Source: Eubacterium minutum ATCC 700079
GTDB taxonomy: Bacteria > Bacillota > Clostridia > Peptostreptococcales > Anaerovoracaceae
Reading direction: 5' to 3'
Length of the DNA stretch: 64,000 nt
Assembly (NCBI GenBank): GCA_003433295.1
Contig: CP016202.1
Span: forward strand, 259,087 to 323,086
Below, in pieces: positions 30,858 through 36,676 of the stretch; positions within the stretch are counted from its first letter, which is position 1; each line of letters starts with the position of its first letter. The notes under the pieces are model-generated. The model ran no database searches. It worked only from the letters and a program-made list of their open reading frames with translations, and was not told where the DNA came from. A program made the translations under genes and the position numbers.

Positions 30858-31790
30858 ATGCCTAACAGAAAAACAATAATAAAAAGGTCAATACTTTGTA
30901 AAATCATATCTTGTACACTGCTGCTGATCGTTTCGGCTGTTTGCCTTTACAGCTGCGGAGATGTGAAAAAGAATATAAAGAAAGATGTGGAAAAGCACAG
31001 CATGATTTACGGACTCACCATAGATGATGCGTGGTATGACGATATTGCATTAAAGGATGTCGTCAGAGGGCTGAAGAACCTTAAAGCAAGACCGACGGTC
31101 AGGATAGTAATGTCAAAGGAAATTAAGCCGGCGGAATATGTAAAACTGTTTAAATCCGTAAAGCCTTATGCGGATATAATGGCATGCCCTGTAGACTCTT
31201 CCGAAATGAAAAATTTTAAAGACAGTGAAAGTTATCTCCGGAGGTTTAAAGATGCTTACAGACATTTGTCTGAGTATGTAAGCATTTGGGAGGTTGGAAA
31301 TGAAATCAACGGAACGGAGTGGATAAAGCAAAAGCCTGAGATTATAGTCGATAAAATATCTTCGGCGGCAAATTTTATAAAGAGCAAGGGAGAGAAGATA
31401 GAATTGACGTTGTATTGCACCGATTCGCCCCGTAAGGATATGATAGAGTGGACGAAAAAATATATTCCCGCAAAACTGGCCGGTTCCGTTGACTACTGTC
31501 TTGTGAGTTATTATGAAGACGATAACGACGGTTATTCCCCTGAATGGAAGAGCATATTCAAGGGACTCGGCGAACTTTTTCCGTCGGCTTTTCTCGGCAT
31601 AGGGGAGTGCGGCAACATCGCTGAAAACGCAACAGAACAGAGTAAAATAGAAATGGCTAAAAAATATTACAGTATGCCCGAATATCATAAGCGCTTTGTC
31701 GGAGGGTATTTCTGGTGGAATTGGGTTGAGGACTGCATCCCGTATAAAAATAACAAGATATACGAAACCATCAGAAACCACGGTGTATGA
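30858..31790 (+). CDS. Lipoprotein with glycoside hydrolase clan A-like TIM barrel
   Basis: Secreted lipid-anchored protein, 310 residues. A basic N-terminus and hydrophobic stretch end in the lipobox LYSC (C33). The mature part has strand/helix alternation of a TIM barrel with WEVGNEINGTEW (N148-E149, candidate acid/base) and LGIGECGN (E250, candidate nucleophile), spaced about 100 residues apart as in clan A glycoside hydrolases; YFWWNWVED follows near the C-terminus. This is a motif-based inference, and the family and substrate are not identified. A ribosome site (aaaggag) precedes the ATG. Base composition is nearer to the host than to the adjacent island. Confidence 0.7.
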   Translation: MPNRKTIIKRSILCKIISCTLLLIVSAVCLYSCGDVKKNIKKDVEKHSMIYGLTIDDAWYDDIALKDVVRGLKNLKARPTVRIVMSKEIKPAEYVKLFKSVKPYADIMACPVDSSEMKNFKDSESYLRRFKDAYRHLSEYVSIWEVGNEINGTEWIKQKPEIIVDKISSAANFIKSKGEKIELTLYCTDSPRKDMIEWTKKYIPAKLAGSVDYCLVSYYEDDNDGYSPEWKSIFKGLGELFPSAFLGIGECGNIAENATEQSKIEMAKKYYSMPEYHKRFVGGYFWWNWVEDCIPYKNNKIYETIRNHGV

Positions 31791-32040: not shown

Positions 32041-32694
32041 ATGAAAGAGAAAACGGGTAAAGTATTTTCAATAGCCGAGGACAATGTTCCGGTTACGGGA
32101 TGCACCATATCAAAAGAAGTGTACAGCGGAGGGAATTACATATTGTACTTTTCTCTCGCTAAGAATACGGATATAAGTGCGGAGATATTTCCATATCATA
32201 AGTTCATTATCGTGGCAGATGGAACTATGGAAGTATACACTTCGGACGGAAAAGTAAAAGAACTGAAAAAAGGAGATTCCGTTCTTACCCCGACGGACAT
32301 CCCGGTCGGGATGAGAACCCGAACAGCGGCGGTTTACACGGAAATTGAGATAAGAAAGGAAGATAAAGTGAACGAAGCAATCAAGGCGGGAAATATATTC
32401 AAACTGGCGGAACTTGTACCATATCAGGAAGGAAAAATCGTCAACATGGATGTTGTCCACAACGATAAGATGAAACTTGTCGTGATGGCGTTTGATTCGG
32501 CGACGGGACTTTCGGAACACGCGGCCCCGGGTGAGGCTCTAATCTTCGCCCTTGAGGGCGAAGGCGTGATCGGATATGAGGGCGTAGACAATGTTATCAA
32601 AGCGGGGGAAAACTTCCACTTTGCCAAGGGCGGAATGCATTCCGTGAAAGCCGACGGCAGATTCAAAATGGCGATATTGCTGACACTTGAATGA
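32041..32694 (+). CDS. Double-cupin protein
   Basis: A 217-residue bicupin without signal peptide. The first cupin covers about residues 35-105 (EIFPYHKFIIVADGTMEVYTSDG) and the second about 140-215 (GLSEHAAPGEALIFALEGEGVIGYEG, then GENFHFAKGGMHSVKADG with His residues in metal-binding positions). Only the second appears to keep the metal-site histidines. Such proteins often sense or bind small molecules in anaerobes; no substrate can be assigned. The start is ATG 32041, preceded at a distance by gaggtg. Confidence 0.75.
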   Translation: MKEKTGKVFSIAEDNVPVTGCTISKEVYSGGNYILYFSLAKNTDISAEIFPYHKFIIVADGTMEVYTSDGKVKELKKGDSVLTPTDIPVGMRTRTAAVYTEIEIRKEDKVNEAIKAGNIFKLAELVPYQEGKIVNMDVVHNDKMKLVVMAFDSATGLSEHAAPGEALIFALEGEGVIGYEGVDNVIKAGENFHFAKGGMHSVKADGRFKMAILLTLE

Positions 32695-32728
32695 TCTTGT
32701 CAGGGTACCGTCCCGGAATCGTTTTTTA

Positions 32729-32757
32729 TTGCCATTTTAAAATTTAAGGAGTATAAT
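32729..32757 (+). promoter_or_regulatory. Promoter of the candidate 6S RNA
   Basis: TTGCCA at 32729-32734, a 17-nt spacer and TATAAT at 32752-32757. Transcription would start near 32764, exactly where the paired RNA begins. Confidence 0.7.
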
Positions 32758-32763
32758 GAGGTT

Positions 32764-32945
32764 GCCTGGAACACATGTCAAGGGCTCTTAATTGAACCTA
32801 CAACACTTGAATGGGAATCTGAAGTTCGTCCTGCGATGTCGTGCCGCGCTTGTCGCGGAAGGCAAATCTTGATGACAGGATACCCACCTATCCTTAGGAT
32901 AGGCGTCAATTAAGCCCTGACGGCGTTTCCGGGTTATTTTTATAT
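32764..32945 (+). ncRNA. ssrS: Candidate 6S RNA (rod-shaped non-coding RNA)
   Basis: A 375-bp gap before polA holds no frame of note but contains a long imperfect terminal stem: about 32767-32795 (cctggaac...taattga) pairs with about 32908-32937 (tcaattaagccct...ccggg). Inside, an open middle region and an apical stem (tcctg near 32829 with cagga near 32876, plus ccgcg-cttgt-cgcgg at about 32844-32858) give a rod. On the 3' side of the open region a perfect hairpin cctatcc-tta-ggatagg sits at 32887-32903, comparable to the hairpin that 6S RNAs form beside the central bubble. A strong promoter precedes it and a T-rich end (ttattttta) follows. Size about 180 nt fits 6S RNA. Identification rests on shape, not on a covariance search. 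Confidence 0.6.
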
Positions 32946-33069
32946 CCGATGAGCGCTCAATGAGTCTTAATTAAAATCAGGTGTTTACTTTTGATTTAAA
33001 ACTGTCAGGACTTATTGAACGTAGCAGTCACTATTTATAAAGACGCGGAGAACGGCGGGAGAACATCGT

Positions 33070-35730
33070 ATGGACAGAATTGTTATTATAGACGGGAACA
33101 GCCTGATCAACAGAGCGTATTACGCCATGCAGCGTCCCATGATCACAAAGACGGGAATATACACGCAGGGCATTTACGGTTTTCTGAACATGCTGAATCG
33201 CATACTGGAAGATTATGTTCCCGAATATATTGCGGTGGCATGGGACAAGAAAGCGCCCACTTTCAGGCATAAGGAATATAAAGAATATAAAGCGGGCAGA
33301 AAAAAAATGCCGCCCGAGCTTGCCATGCAGCTTCCGCTTATCAAAGAAGTCATGAACGCAATGAAGATAACCAACCTCGAAGCTGAGGGGTTTGAGGCGG
33401 ACGACATAATCGGAACCGTCGCAAGAATCGCCGAAGAAGAGGGGCTGAAACCTCTCATAATAACCGGAGACAAGGATGCTCTCCAGCTTTGCGGCAAGGT
33501 GACCGAAGTGCTGATTACGCGGAGAGGAATAAGCGAGTTCGATCTGTTCGACCACGATAAAATGCTCGAGCGGTACGAGCTTACACCGTCGCAGTTTGTG
33601 GATCTGAAAGGTCTAATGGGTGACAGTTCGGACAATATACCGGGAATCCCCGGAGTCGGAGAAAAGACCGGTATAAAACTGTTAAAGCAGTTCGGGACGG
33701 TAGAAAACCTCGTGGCAAACACGGAGGAAATAAGCAACGCGAAATTACGTTCAAAAGTTGAGGACAACGTGCAACTTGCCCTGCTCAGCAGAAAGCTTGC
33801 TGAAATCAACAGGTTTGTGCCCATCGACATAAGTATCGAGAATTTCAGAACACAGGAATCCGATCGCGATGAACTGATTTCCATATATACTAAACTGGAA
33901 TTCAACTCCTTTCTGAAAAAACTTTCTTTCCATGACGGAAAGAGCGACATAAAGCCATCCGGCGGAGATGAAACCGAATACCGAAGATGCGTAATAAGAA
34001 ACAGCGGAGATCTGACTGAACTTAGAAACATTGAAGAAGGAAGCACGGTTATTCTGAAAGTCTTCGGGAACAACGATCACGTAAATCTGCCGGTGATAGA
34101 CGGGATATCGATGATAACGGGAGATCGGAGCATATATGTTTCGCTTGACGAAATCGAAATCGGAGAAGTTACGGAAATCCTCAACGATAAGAATTTAAAA
34201 TTTGTCGGACACGAACTCATCCGCGACTATTTTATGCTTATGTCGTACGGGATGAAATCGCCGAATACTGAGTTTGACACGGCGATCGCGGCCTATGTGC
34301 TGAACCCCTCACAGTCAAACTACAACATAAAGACTCTCACATTCGAAGAACTTCATGAGGAAATAATATCCGAAGAAGAGTTCAGGAAGAATGCGGGGCA
34401 GATCGACATGCTCGGCGACAATATAAAAGAAATTGCCGAATACGGTCTTCTCTGGTGCAAAAACGTAAAGGCGCTGCATAAGGCTTTTAATAACCGGATG
34501 ACCGGGGATGATATCAAAATCTGCGATGAAATCGAGTTTCCTCTGATAAAGATACTTGCGGATATGGAAGTTACGGGGATTACGGCAGACGTCGATATAC
34601 TGCGCAAACAGGGTGATGAACTTAAGCGTGAAATAGCAGGCATAGAACAGGAAATCCACAATCTTGCGGGAGAAACTTTCAATGTAAATTCCCCGATGCA
34701 GCTCGGAAAAATATTATTTGAAAAACTCGGACTGCCGGCGGGCAAAAAAACTAAGAAAGGATACAGTACGAGTGCGGAAACGCTGGAAAAGATCAGCTCG
34801 GAGCATCCGATAATTCCGCAGGTTCTGAGATACAGAACCGTCTCAAAGATCAACGGCACTTACGTTGAAGGTTTGATTCCGCTTATCGGATTTGACGGAA
34901 AGATACGGGCACACTTTCAGCAAACCGTTGCAGCAACGGGAAGGTTGAGCTGTACTGAGCCCAATCTCCAGAACATCCCTGTCCGGGAGGAAATGGGACG
35001 TCGTATCAGAAAGGCTTTTGTGCCTGAAGACGGCCATGTTTTTGTAGGAGCCGATTATTCCCAGATAGAACTCAGGATAATGGCTCATCTTTCGCAGGAC
35101 GAAAATTTGATAAATTCGTTTAACAACGGTGACGATGTTCACAGAATGACGGCATCCCGCGTCTTTGACATCGACTATGACAAGGTTACGCCTCTCGACA
35201 GGAGCAGGGCAAAGGCCGTGAACTTCGGAGTGATCTACGGAATGAGCGCTTTCGGGCTTTCGGAGGAACTGGGTATAACGCGCAGGCAGGCGGAACAGTA
35301 CATAGAAGACTATTTCAAGAAACATGAAGCCGTGAAATCGTATCTTGATGAACGGGTCAAACTGTGCAGGCAGCGCGGATATACTGAGACAATTTTCGGA
35401 CGAAAACGTTACGTGCCTGAAATCTCCGCATCGAACTATATGACGAGGCAGTTCGGGGAAAGACTCGCTATGAATACTCCTATACAAGGTTCTGCCGCAG
35501 ATGTTATAAAGATTGCCATGCAGAGGGTTTTCCGTGCGCTGAAAGAGAATTATCCGAAAGCGAAACTTGTTCTGCAGATTCACGACGAGCTTATTATTTC
35601 CACCGAAAAAGAAGATCTGGGAGCCGTAAAGAAACTTTTGACCGAAAATATGGAAGAAGCCGTGAAACTTTCCGTCAGACTCATATGTGACGTGAACAGC
35701 GGCAGCTCATGGTACGATTTGAAGGATTGA
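33070..35730 (+). CDS. polA: DNA polymerase I
   Basis: Repair and Okazaki-fragment polymerase, 886 residues. The N-terminal 5'-3' exonuclease domain is complete (IIDGNSLINRAYYAM; FEADDIIGTVA; LKGLMGDSSDNIPGIPGVGEKT). The polymerase domain has motif A DYSQIELRIMAHLS, motif B RAKAVNFGVIYGMSAFG and motif C QIHDELI. The middle 3'-5' exonuclease-like region keeps the fold (FDTAIAAYVLNPSQSNY) but lacks the FDTET-type acidic pair at its start (VILKVFGNNDHVN instead), so proofreading is probably absent, as in Bacillus PolI. A poor promoter (TTGAAC-N17-TAAAGA, 33015-33043) is possible. coaE begins two bases after the stop. Confidence 0.97.
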   Translation: MDRIVIIDGNSLINRAYYAMQRPMITKTGIYTQGIYGFLNMLNRILEDYVPEYIAVAWDKKAPTFRHKEYKEYKAGRKKMPPELAMQLPLIKEVMNAMKITNLEAEGFEADDIIGTVARIAEEEGLKPLIITGDKDALQLCGKVTEVLITRRGISEFDLFDHDKMLERYELTPSQFVDLKGLMGDSSDNIPGIPGVGEKTGIKLLKQFGTVENLVANTEEISNAKLRSKVEDNVQLALLSRKLAEINRFVPIDISIENFRTQESDRDELISIYTKLEFNSFLKKLSFHDGKSDIKPSGGDETEYRRCVIRNSGDLTELRNIEEGSTVILKVFGNNDHVNLPVIDGISMITGDRSIYVSLDEIEIGEVTEILNDKNLKFVGHELIRDYFMLMSYGMKSPNTEFDTAIAAYVLNPSQSNYNIKTLTFEELHEEIISEEEFRKNAGQIDMLGDNIKEIAEYGLLWCKNVKALHKAFNNRMTGDDIKICDEIEFPLIKILADMEVTGITADVDILRKQGDELKREIAGIEQEIHNLAGETFNVNSPMQLGKILFEKLGLPAGKKTKKGYSTSAETLEKISSEHPIIPQVLRYRTVSKINGTYVEGLIPLIGFDGKIRAHFQQTVAATGRLSCTEPNLQNIPVREEMGRRIRKAFVPEDGHVFVGADYSQIELRIMAHLSQDENLINSFNNGDDVHRMTASRVFDIDYDKVTPLDRSRAKAVNFGVIYGMSAFGLSEELGITRRQAEQYIEDYFKKHEAVKSYLDERVKLCRQRGYTETIFGRKRYVPEISASNYMTRQFGERLAMNTPIQGSAADVIKIAMQRVFRALKENYPKAKLVLQIHDELIISTEKEDLGAVKKLLTENMEEAVKLSVRLICDVNSGSSWYDLKD

Positions 35731-36482: not shown

Positions 36483-36565
36483 GCGGCTGTGGCGGAATAG
36501 GTAGACGCGCACGCTTGAGGGGCGTGTGGGCGACCGTGCTGGTTCGAGTCCAGTCAGCCGCACCA
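36483..36565 (+). tRNA. tRNA-Leu (anticodon GAG)
   Basis: The cloverleaf is complete: acceptor gcggctg with cagccgc at 36555-36561, anticodon stem cacgc/gcgtg around the loop ttgaggg (anticodon GAG), long variable arm as in class II tRNAs, T-loop ggttcgagtcc, discriminator A and encoded CCA at 36563-36565. Reads CUC/CUU leucine codons. Confidence 0.95.
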
Positions 36566-36589: not shown

Positions 36590-36676
36590 GCCGGCGTGAT
36601 GGAATTGGCAGACGTGCAGGATTCAAAATCCTGTGGTGGTGACACCGTATGGGTTCGACCCCCATCGCCGGCACCA
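36590..36676 (+). tRNA. tRNA-Leu (anticodon CAA)
   Basis: Acceptor gccggcg at 36590-36596 pairs with cgccggc at 36666-36672; anticodon stem cagga/tcctg holds the loop ttcaaaa (anticodon CAA, UUG codons). Long variable arm, T-loop gggttcgaccc, discriminator A and encoded CCA at 36674-36676. It lies 24 bases after the first tRNA-Leu and likely shares its promoter. Confidence 0.95.

Follow-up and report, generated by a model that had tools for sequence, protein, structure and literature searches.

A predicted single-copy 6S RNA gene of Eubacterium minutum and its place before polA

What does the protein-free gap upstream of polA encode in Eubacterium minutum ATCC 700079, and is its product tied to polA itself? 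We considered these questions in a window of 64,000 nucleotides (the whole stretch of DNA that was analysed, contig CP016202.1), to which all coordinates refer. A preliminary description, made from the letters alone, had proposed a 6S RNA at 32764-32945. Features of the locus are collected in Table 1.

Table 1. Features of the 6S RNA locus and the following polA gene (positions in the window)
Feature	Position	Strand	Evidence
Sigma-A-type promoter of the 6S gene, TTGCCA-17-TATAAT	32729..32757	+	11 of 12 matches; 0/200 shuffles as good; TATAAT kept in 14/17 genus members
6S RNA gene (predicted)	32760..32939	+	RF00013 66 bits vs 46.4; sole genome match; covarying helices
Block UAAUUGAACCUACA	32789..32802	+	Identical in 17/17 genus members (invariant columns 30-43)
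3'-central-bubble hairpin, 7 bp, 3-nt loop	32887..32903	+	At least 6 consecutive pairs in 31/31 family members
3' strand of closing stem (CCGGG) and U-rich tract, probably an intrinsic-terminator-like end	32929..32943	+	Fold; T-tract in relatives
polA (DNA polymerase I)	33070..35730	+	TIGR00593 965.5 bits (cut-off 600), NF004397; 130 nt downstream of the 6S match

Identity of the RNA gene

RF00013, the covariance model by which the preliminary description had proposed to check its 6S candidate, matched 32760-32939 above its curated cut-off over model positions 1-187 of 187, with E = 8.1e-11 in a search of the whole window, and the candidate is upheld by this full-length match. The proposed coordinates also agree with the likely transcript: with a -10 box ending at 32757, its start is placed near 32764. 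Besides 6S, just two tRNAs exceeded their cut-offs in the whole-window Rfam search. Other RNA families sought in 32600-33100 up to E = 10 gave lsy-6 (18.3 of 60) and RydC (15.4 of 48), both far under their own cut-offs and downstream of the 6S match. The match is the only one in the 1.9-Mb genome (96% complete), with no second copy at E <= 0.001. We put a probability of about 0.96 on the reading that this stretch is the gene for an ordinary single-copy 6S RNA of the ssrS/bsrA type, with its own sigma-A promoter-like site and a predicted RNA of about 180 nt. The sequence itself shows covariance-model membership, a site resembling a promoter, a structure that is both conserved and covarying, a template block kept in the genus, and the place before polA.

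A promoter-like site near consensus and the absence of a protein frame were likewise found, in line with the preliminary description. When the 60 nt preceding the Rfam match were shuffled 200 times with dinucleotides preserved, no shuffle reached the promoter score. In the 14 genus members that keep TATAAT, it lies no more than 30 nt ahead of the 6S match, and the best promoter score averaged 9.8 of 12 in the genus versus 6.8 in shuffles. Promoter support among relatives is nevertheless uneven and counts against full confidence: G005 and G010 are without a clear -10 at the usual position, and the promoters of G003, G004 and G005 blend into shuffles, of which 20, 35 and 96 of 200, respectively, were as good. 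No ORF of at least 60 aa starting with ATG, GTG or TTG overlaps 32764-32945, and the longest stop-free run in 32695-33069 is 72 codons on the forward strand and 60 on the reverse strand. On the reverse strand, a promoter-like TTGACA-17-CATTAT (10 of 12, 32753-32781) overlaps the 6S start and may be due to chance.

How this gene compares with those of relatives was surveyed with RF00013 in 61 genomes, namely the genome itself and 60 relatives, with a genus of 17 members (window included). A 6S match at E <= 0.001 was present in 53 genomes and exceeded the cut-off in 50; all 17 genus members carried exactly one each, all above the cut-off and with scores of 51.9-79.3 bits. The best order members reached up to 113 bits, and the lower score of 66 bits in the window might indicate a degenerate or non-functional copy. 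However, this score falls inside the genus range, and the sole 6S match of the genome comes with a near-consensus promoter and with its helices and template block kept, so that we consider decay of the gene very improbable.

A second model, R1, built from the 17 genus sequences, recovered 6S in two of the eight genomes missed by Rfam (G017 and G035). The other six (G018, G021, G022, G030, G048 and G054) gave no 6S match with RF00013 and none with R1 up to E = 1, where 150 first-look candidates out of some 190-250 per genome were scored. With a completeness of 100% for G018 and 96% for G048, true loss or a very divergent 6S is possible; the other four are 81-86% complete. Three order relatives (G038, G041 and G049) had two 6S matches each, possibly pairs resembling 6S-1 and 6S-2. 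The genus as grouped here seems to include Aminicella lysinilytica (G013, by appearance), which the NCBI taxonomy places in Clostridia, Peptostreptococcales, Anaerovoracaceae. The 6S matches of G013 and of the A. lysinilytica genome (L070) share contig number, coordinates and score, and their polA positions also coincide (contig 6, about 68.8-71.4 kb).

Structure, covariation and the predicted pRNA

The stretch 32760-32945 folds into a rod of -63.8 kcal/mol (z = -3.36), a value equalled by none of 200 shuffles. The terminal stem, the apical stem and the open middle (on the 5' side) of the preliminary description are all present, together with its perfect 7-bp hairpin on the 3' side of the bubble (CCTATCC-TTA-GGATAGG). 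In 6S RNAs of the B. subtilis type, the known counterpart of this hairpin is the 3'-central-bubble hairpin. Read sequence by sequence with G-U pairs allowed, it reaches the pair count given in Table 1 in 17 genus and 14 other family members, and both of its arms have changed in G020, G027 and G029. The count is restricted to these 31 sequences; in the 22 sequences from other families (of 53 in all), a crude motif search left 6 without an anchor and picked several wrong or short hairpins.

Hairpins of this length are also found by chance, as 193 of 940 shuffled 28-nt stretches had a best hairpin of at least 6 pairs. Evidence therefore comes from the constant place and the arms, and not from length alone. 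If the whole structure were a chance fold of a non-coding gap, the frequency of such hairpins in shuffles would speak for it, but the covariance-model match refutes it, and the z-score of the rod and conservation with covariation over 17 and 31 genomes also speak against it; its probability is negligible.

RNAalifold on the alignment of the 17 genus sequences returned the rod plus the 3' hairpin. In this alignment, 95.7% of 831 cells pair and 14 of 49 pairs show changes on both sides (13 by RNAalifold's own count), for a scored structure that derives from the same alignment and is favoured by it. None of 500 shuffles reached any of five pairing measures, although shuffles ignore relatedness, which alone can exceed them, and sliding the partners by 1-3 columns lowered pairing to 32-48%. 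The closing or lower helix is quieter: of its 24 pairs, 11 are invariant and 9 differ on a single side. The alignment of 31 family sequences shows two-sided changes in 25 of 43 predicted pairs. The 6S helices are thus backed by compensatory changes among relatives in both alignments. On the family alignment, RNAalifold omitted the hairpin and paired AGG, the last three bases of its right arm, with CCU of the 5' bubble. In the window these are CCU 32797-32799 and AGG 32901-32903, the pairing of which is a possible alternative state of the bubble.

The invariant block runs from T 32789 to A 32802. Its first seven bases (32789-32795), paired in the free fold, are the 5' strand of the helix that adjoins the bubble, and the remainder opens the 5' bubble. 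A comparison with the Rfam consensus alignment and with the pRNA of B. subtilis 6S-1 puts the predicted pRNA start opposite C 32801, at about nt 38, with reading towards 32788, and the predicted pRNA is 5'-GUAGGUUCAAUUAA. An A immediately precedes its start, with AA at positions 9/10 and GG at 4/5. Published hallmarks of pRNAs are an upstream A, AA at 9/10 and GG, the latter at 5/6 in lactic acid bacteria or at 4/5 in more distant bacteria, as described in PMC8414754, and the predicted pRNA follows the distant bacteria rather than the lactic acid bacteria in its GG.

Blocking the pRNA region in the fold opened the neighbouring helix and left the apical arm and the 3' hairpin folded. For a 14-mer, the energy of blocked fold plus duplex was -75.5 versus -63.4 kcal/mol, a gain that any complementary oligomer would likewise bring. 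The collapse helix of the central bubble described for B. subtilis 6S-1 on pRNA binding did not appear in minimum-energy folds with 8-16 nt blocked; such folds ignore RNAP and kinetics.

According to known 6S biology, from which RNAP binding, pRNA synthesis and a growth-phase role are carried over here, the sigma-A promoter would yield a rod-shaped RNA of about 180 nt, the central bubble of which stays open. The bubble would mimic a melted promoter and occupy sigma-A RNA polymerase when nutrients run out. Upon return of NTPs, the polymerase would start at about C 32801 and use the 5' side of the bubble as template for the short pRNA, and this synthesis would open the neighbouring helix and free the enzyme.

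Linkage of the 6S gene to polA

The preliminary description had also noted the position before polA and suggested comparing it across relatives; polA was confirmed by TIGR00593 in the same direction, and the place proved conserved within the genus. A same-direction gap of no more than 130 nt between 6S and polA occurs in 15 of 17 genus members and one of about 36 nt or less in 10 of 17, counted as the bases between the end of the 6S match and PolA residue 1 extrapolated from tblastn, so that real starts could lie a few codons away. Apart from the window's own genome, 15 of 16 genus members have polA downstream in the same orientation; the gap is 19-100 nt in 14 of them and 696 nt in G014. In the apparent A. 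lysinilytica (G013), no polA was found in the 3.8 kb downstream of 6S, and polA lies on another contig; the linkage is therefore dispensable.

Outside the genus, polA was found within 4 kb downstream of 6S in 5 of 14 family loci (at 16, 28, 943, 1807 and 3066 nt). In other families the count was 1 of 10 loci (at 3729 nt). Both counts are lower bounds owing to contig ends, in a survey covering 41 of 56 6S matches. Conversely, 14 of 80 other public polA loci, A. lysinilytica included, were searched up to 4 kb upstream (less in four), and none had a 6S match above the cut-off; seven of these 14 genomes searched whole all contained a 6S match, above the cut-off in six. The lack of a nearby 6S in genomes that carry one argues against a family-wide link to polA, and the 6S-polA context is lineage-specific, at the level of the genus.

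Side observations concern the other neighbours. Two tRNA-Leu genes (GAG at 36483-36565 and CAA at 36590-36676) come after polA and a dephospho-CoA kinase gene and before yajC-secDF, and a pair of tRNA genes likewise follows polA at the A. lysinilytica locus (L070). No conserved upstream neighbour emerged, as the cupin gene (32041-32694) and the ORF at 30858-31790 had no tblastn match at E <= 1e-5 in 40 loci reaching up to 1.5 kb upstream of 6S. The latter ORF, of 310 aa, matched nothing in Pfam or NCBIfam at E <= 0.001.

Closeness to polA could also mean that the structure is a cis-acting leader of polA, a riboswitch or attenuator, instead of a free-acting 6S RNA. In its favour, polA starts about 19-130 nt downstream in those 15 genus genomes and no consistent promoter was found between the two. 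Against it stand the full-length RF00013 match, the conserved RNA of G013, which lies away from polA on another contig, and 22 of 24 family and order loci that are without polA within 130 nt downstream, some of them cut by contig ends. A polA leader is hence highly unlikely, and we return to a 6S RNA gene with polA as its usual neighbour.

In the window and 15 linked relatives (G013 not included), all 16 genomes carry 6 or more T among the 10 nt that follow the closing stem. The 3' end of 6S would be set by this U-rich tract, near 32940, and most 6S transcripts therefore probably stop there. A terminator scan limited to short loops reported no terminator on the 6S strand. Some transcripts would run past the U-tract into polA.

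A gap of 36 nt would scarcely have space for both a sigma-A promoter and a ribosome site, and gaps of this length or less are probably too short for a promoter of polA's own. This shortage of room suggests that polA may be supplied by read-through of 6S transcripts, or else by a promoter hidden inside 6S; in the window, polA would possibly be transcribed in part by such read-through. A search for a separate polA promoter in the 3' part of 6S and the gap gave a mean best score of 8.1 of 12 versus 7.1 in mononucleotide shuffles (15 genomes; G013 and G014 left out), and only G009 and G011 reached 10 of 12, a score equalled by 3 and 1 of their 200 shuffles, respectively. ATGACA-17-TAGGAT lies inside 6S at 32872-32900, and its counterpart, 38-39 nt before the 6S end, is the best site in 5 of 16 genomes, the window's included. 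A consistent internal promoter for polA was not found in the genus, with unusual promoters still possible.

It is a tentative and rather doubtful further reading that 6S and polA form one transcription unit in the genus. Pol I would then be made mainly from terminator read-through, its supply would follow the 6S promoter, and the 6S leader of the mRNA could bind sigma-A RNAP. As to the last point, B. subtilis 6S-1 extended by a neighbouring mRNA is reported in PMC11077062 to bind RNA polymerase. Among the literature matches listed, no title or abstract mentioned a 6S-polA unit, in a search with subscription journals mostly outside its scope, and the search for 6S in Anaerovoracaceae gave no paper.

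Comparison with known 6S systems

The RNA resembles B. subtilis 6S-1 RNA (BsrA), which is described as a rod with a central bubble and a small 3'-central-bubble hairpin already present in free RNA (PMC8876501). According to the same source, pRNA synthesis begins near nt 40 in B. subtilis, compared with the predicted nt 38 or so here, and GTP is the starting nucleotide there and, as a prediction, here. B. subtilis differs in having two copies compared with one match here, and in its flanking genes, given as aspS and yrvM (PMC11077062), compared with polA following here. Likeness extends to 6S RNAs of lactic acid bacteria, for which PMC8414754 describes the canonical structure, a hairpin opposite the 5' bulge, and the upstream A and AA at 9/10 of pRNA. 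Their usual neighbours, in contrast to polA here, are rarA and uspA, in a context conserved by family, and a transcript shared by 6S and tRNA-Lys was inferred in some Streptococcaceae (PMC8414754).

The arrangement of ssrS-ygfA in E. coli, where a protein gene directly downstream of 6S is co-transcribed with it (PMC2848244), is a precedent for this gene order. Here, by contrast, polA takes the place of ygfA and co-transcription is an inference; if it is real, polA is a new partner in a known arrangement.

The 6S gene is of a known kind and gives little surprise, its sole oddity being the usual place almost directly before polA in the genus. With it, a global transcription regulator and its predicted pRNA are placed in a little-studied lineage of Clostridia that appears to be the Anaerovoracaceae; otherwise this is routine annotation. 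The tight order of 6S and polA makes it simple to test whether, outside the gamma-proteobacteria, a neighbouring protein gene is driven by 6S. If the 6S-polA unit is true, it would tie replication and repair capacity to the switch between stationary phase and outgrowth.
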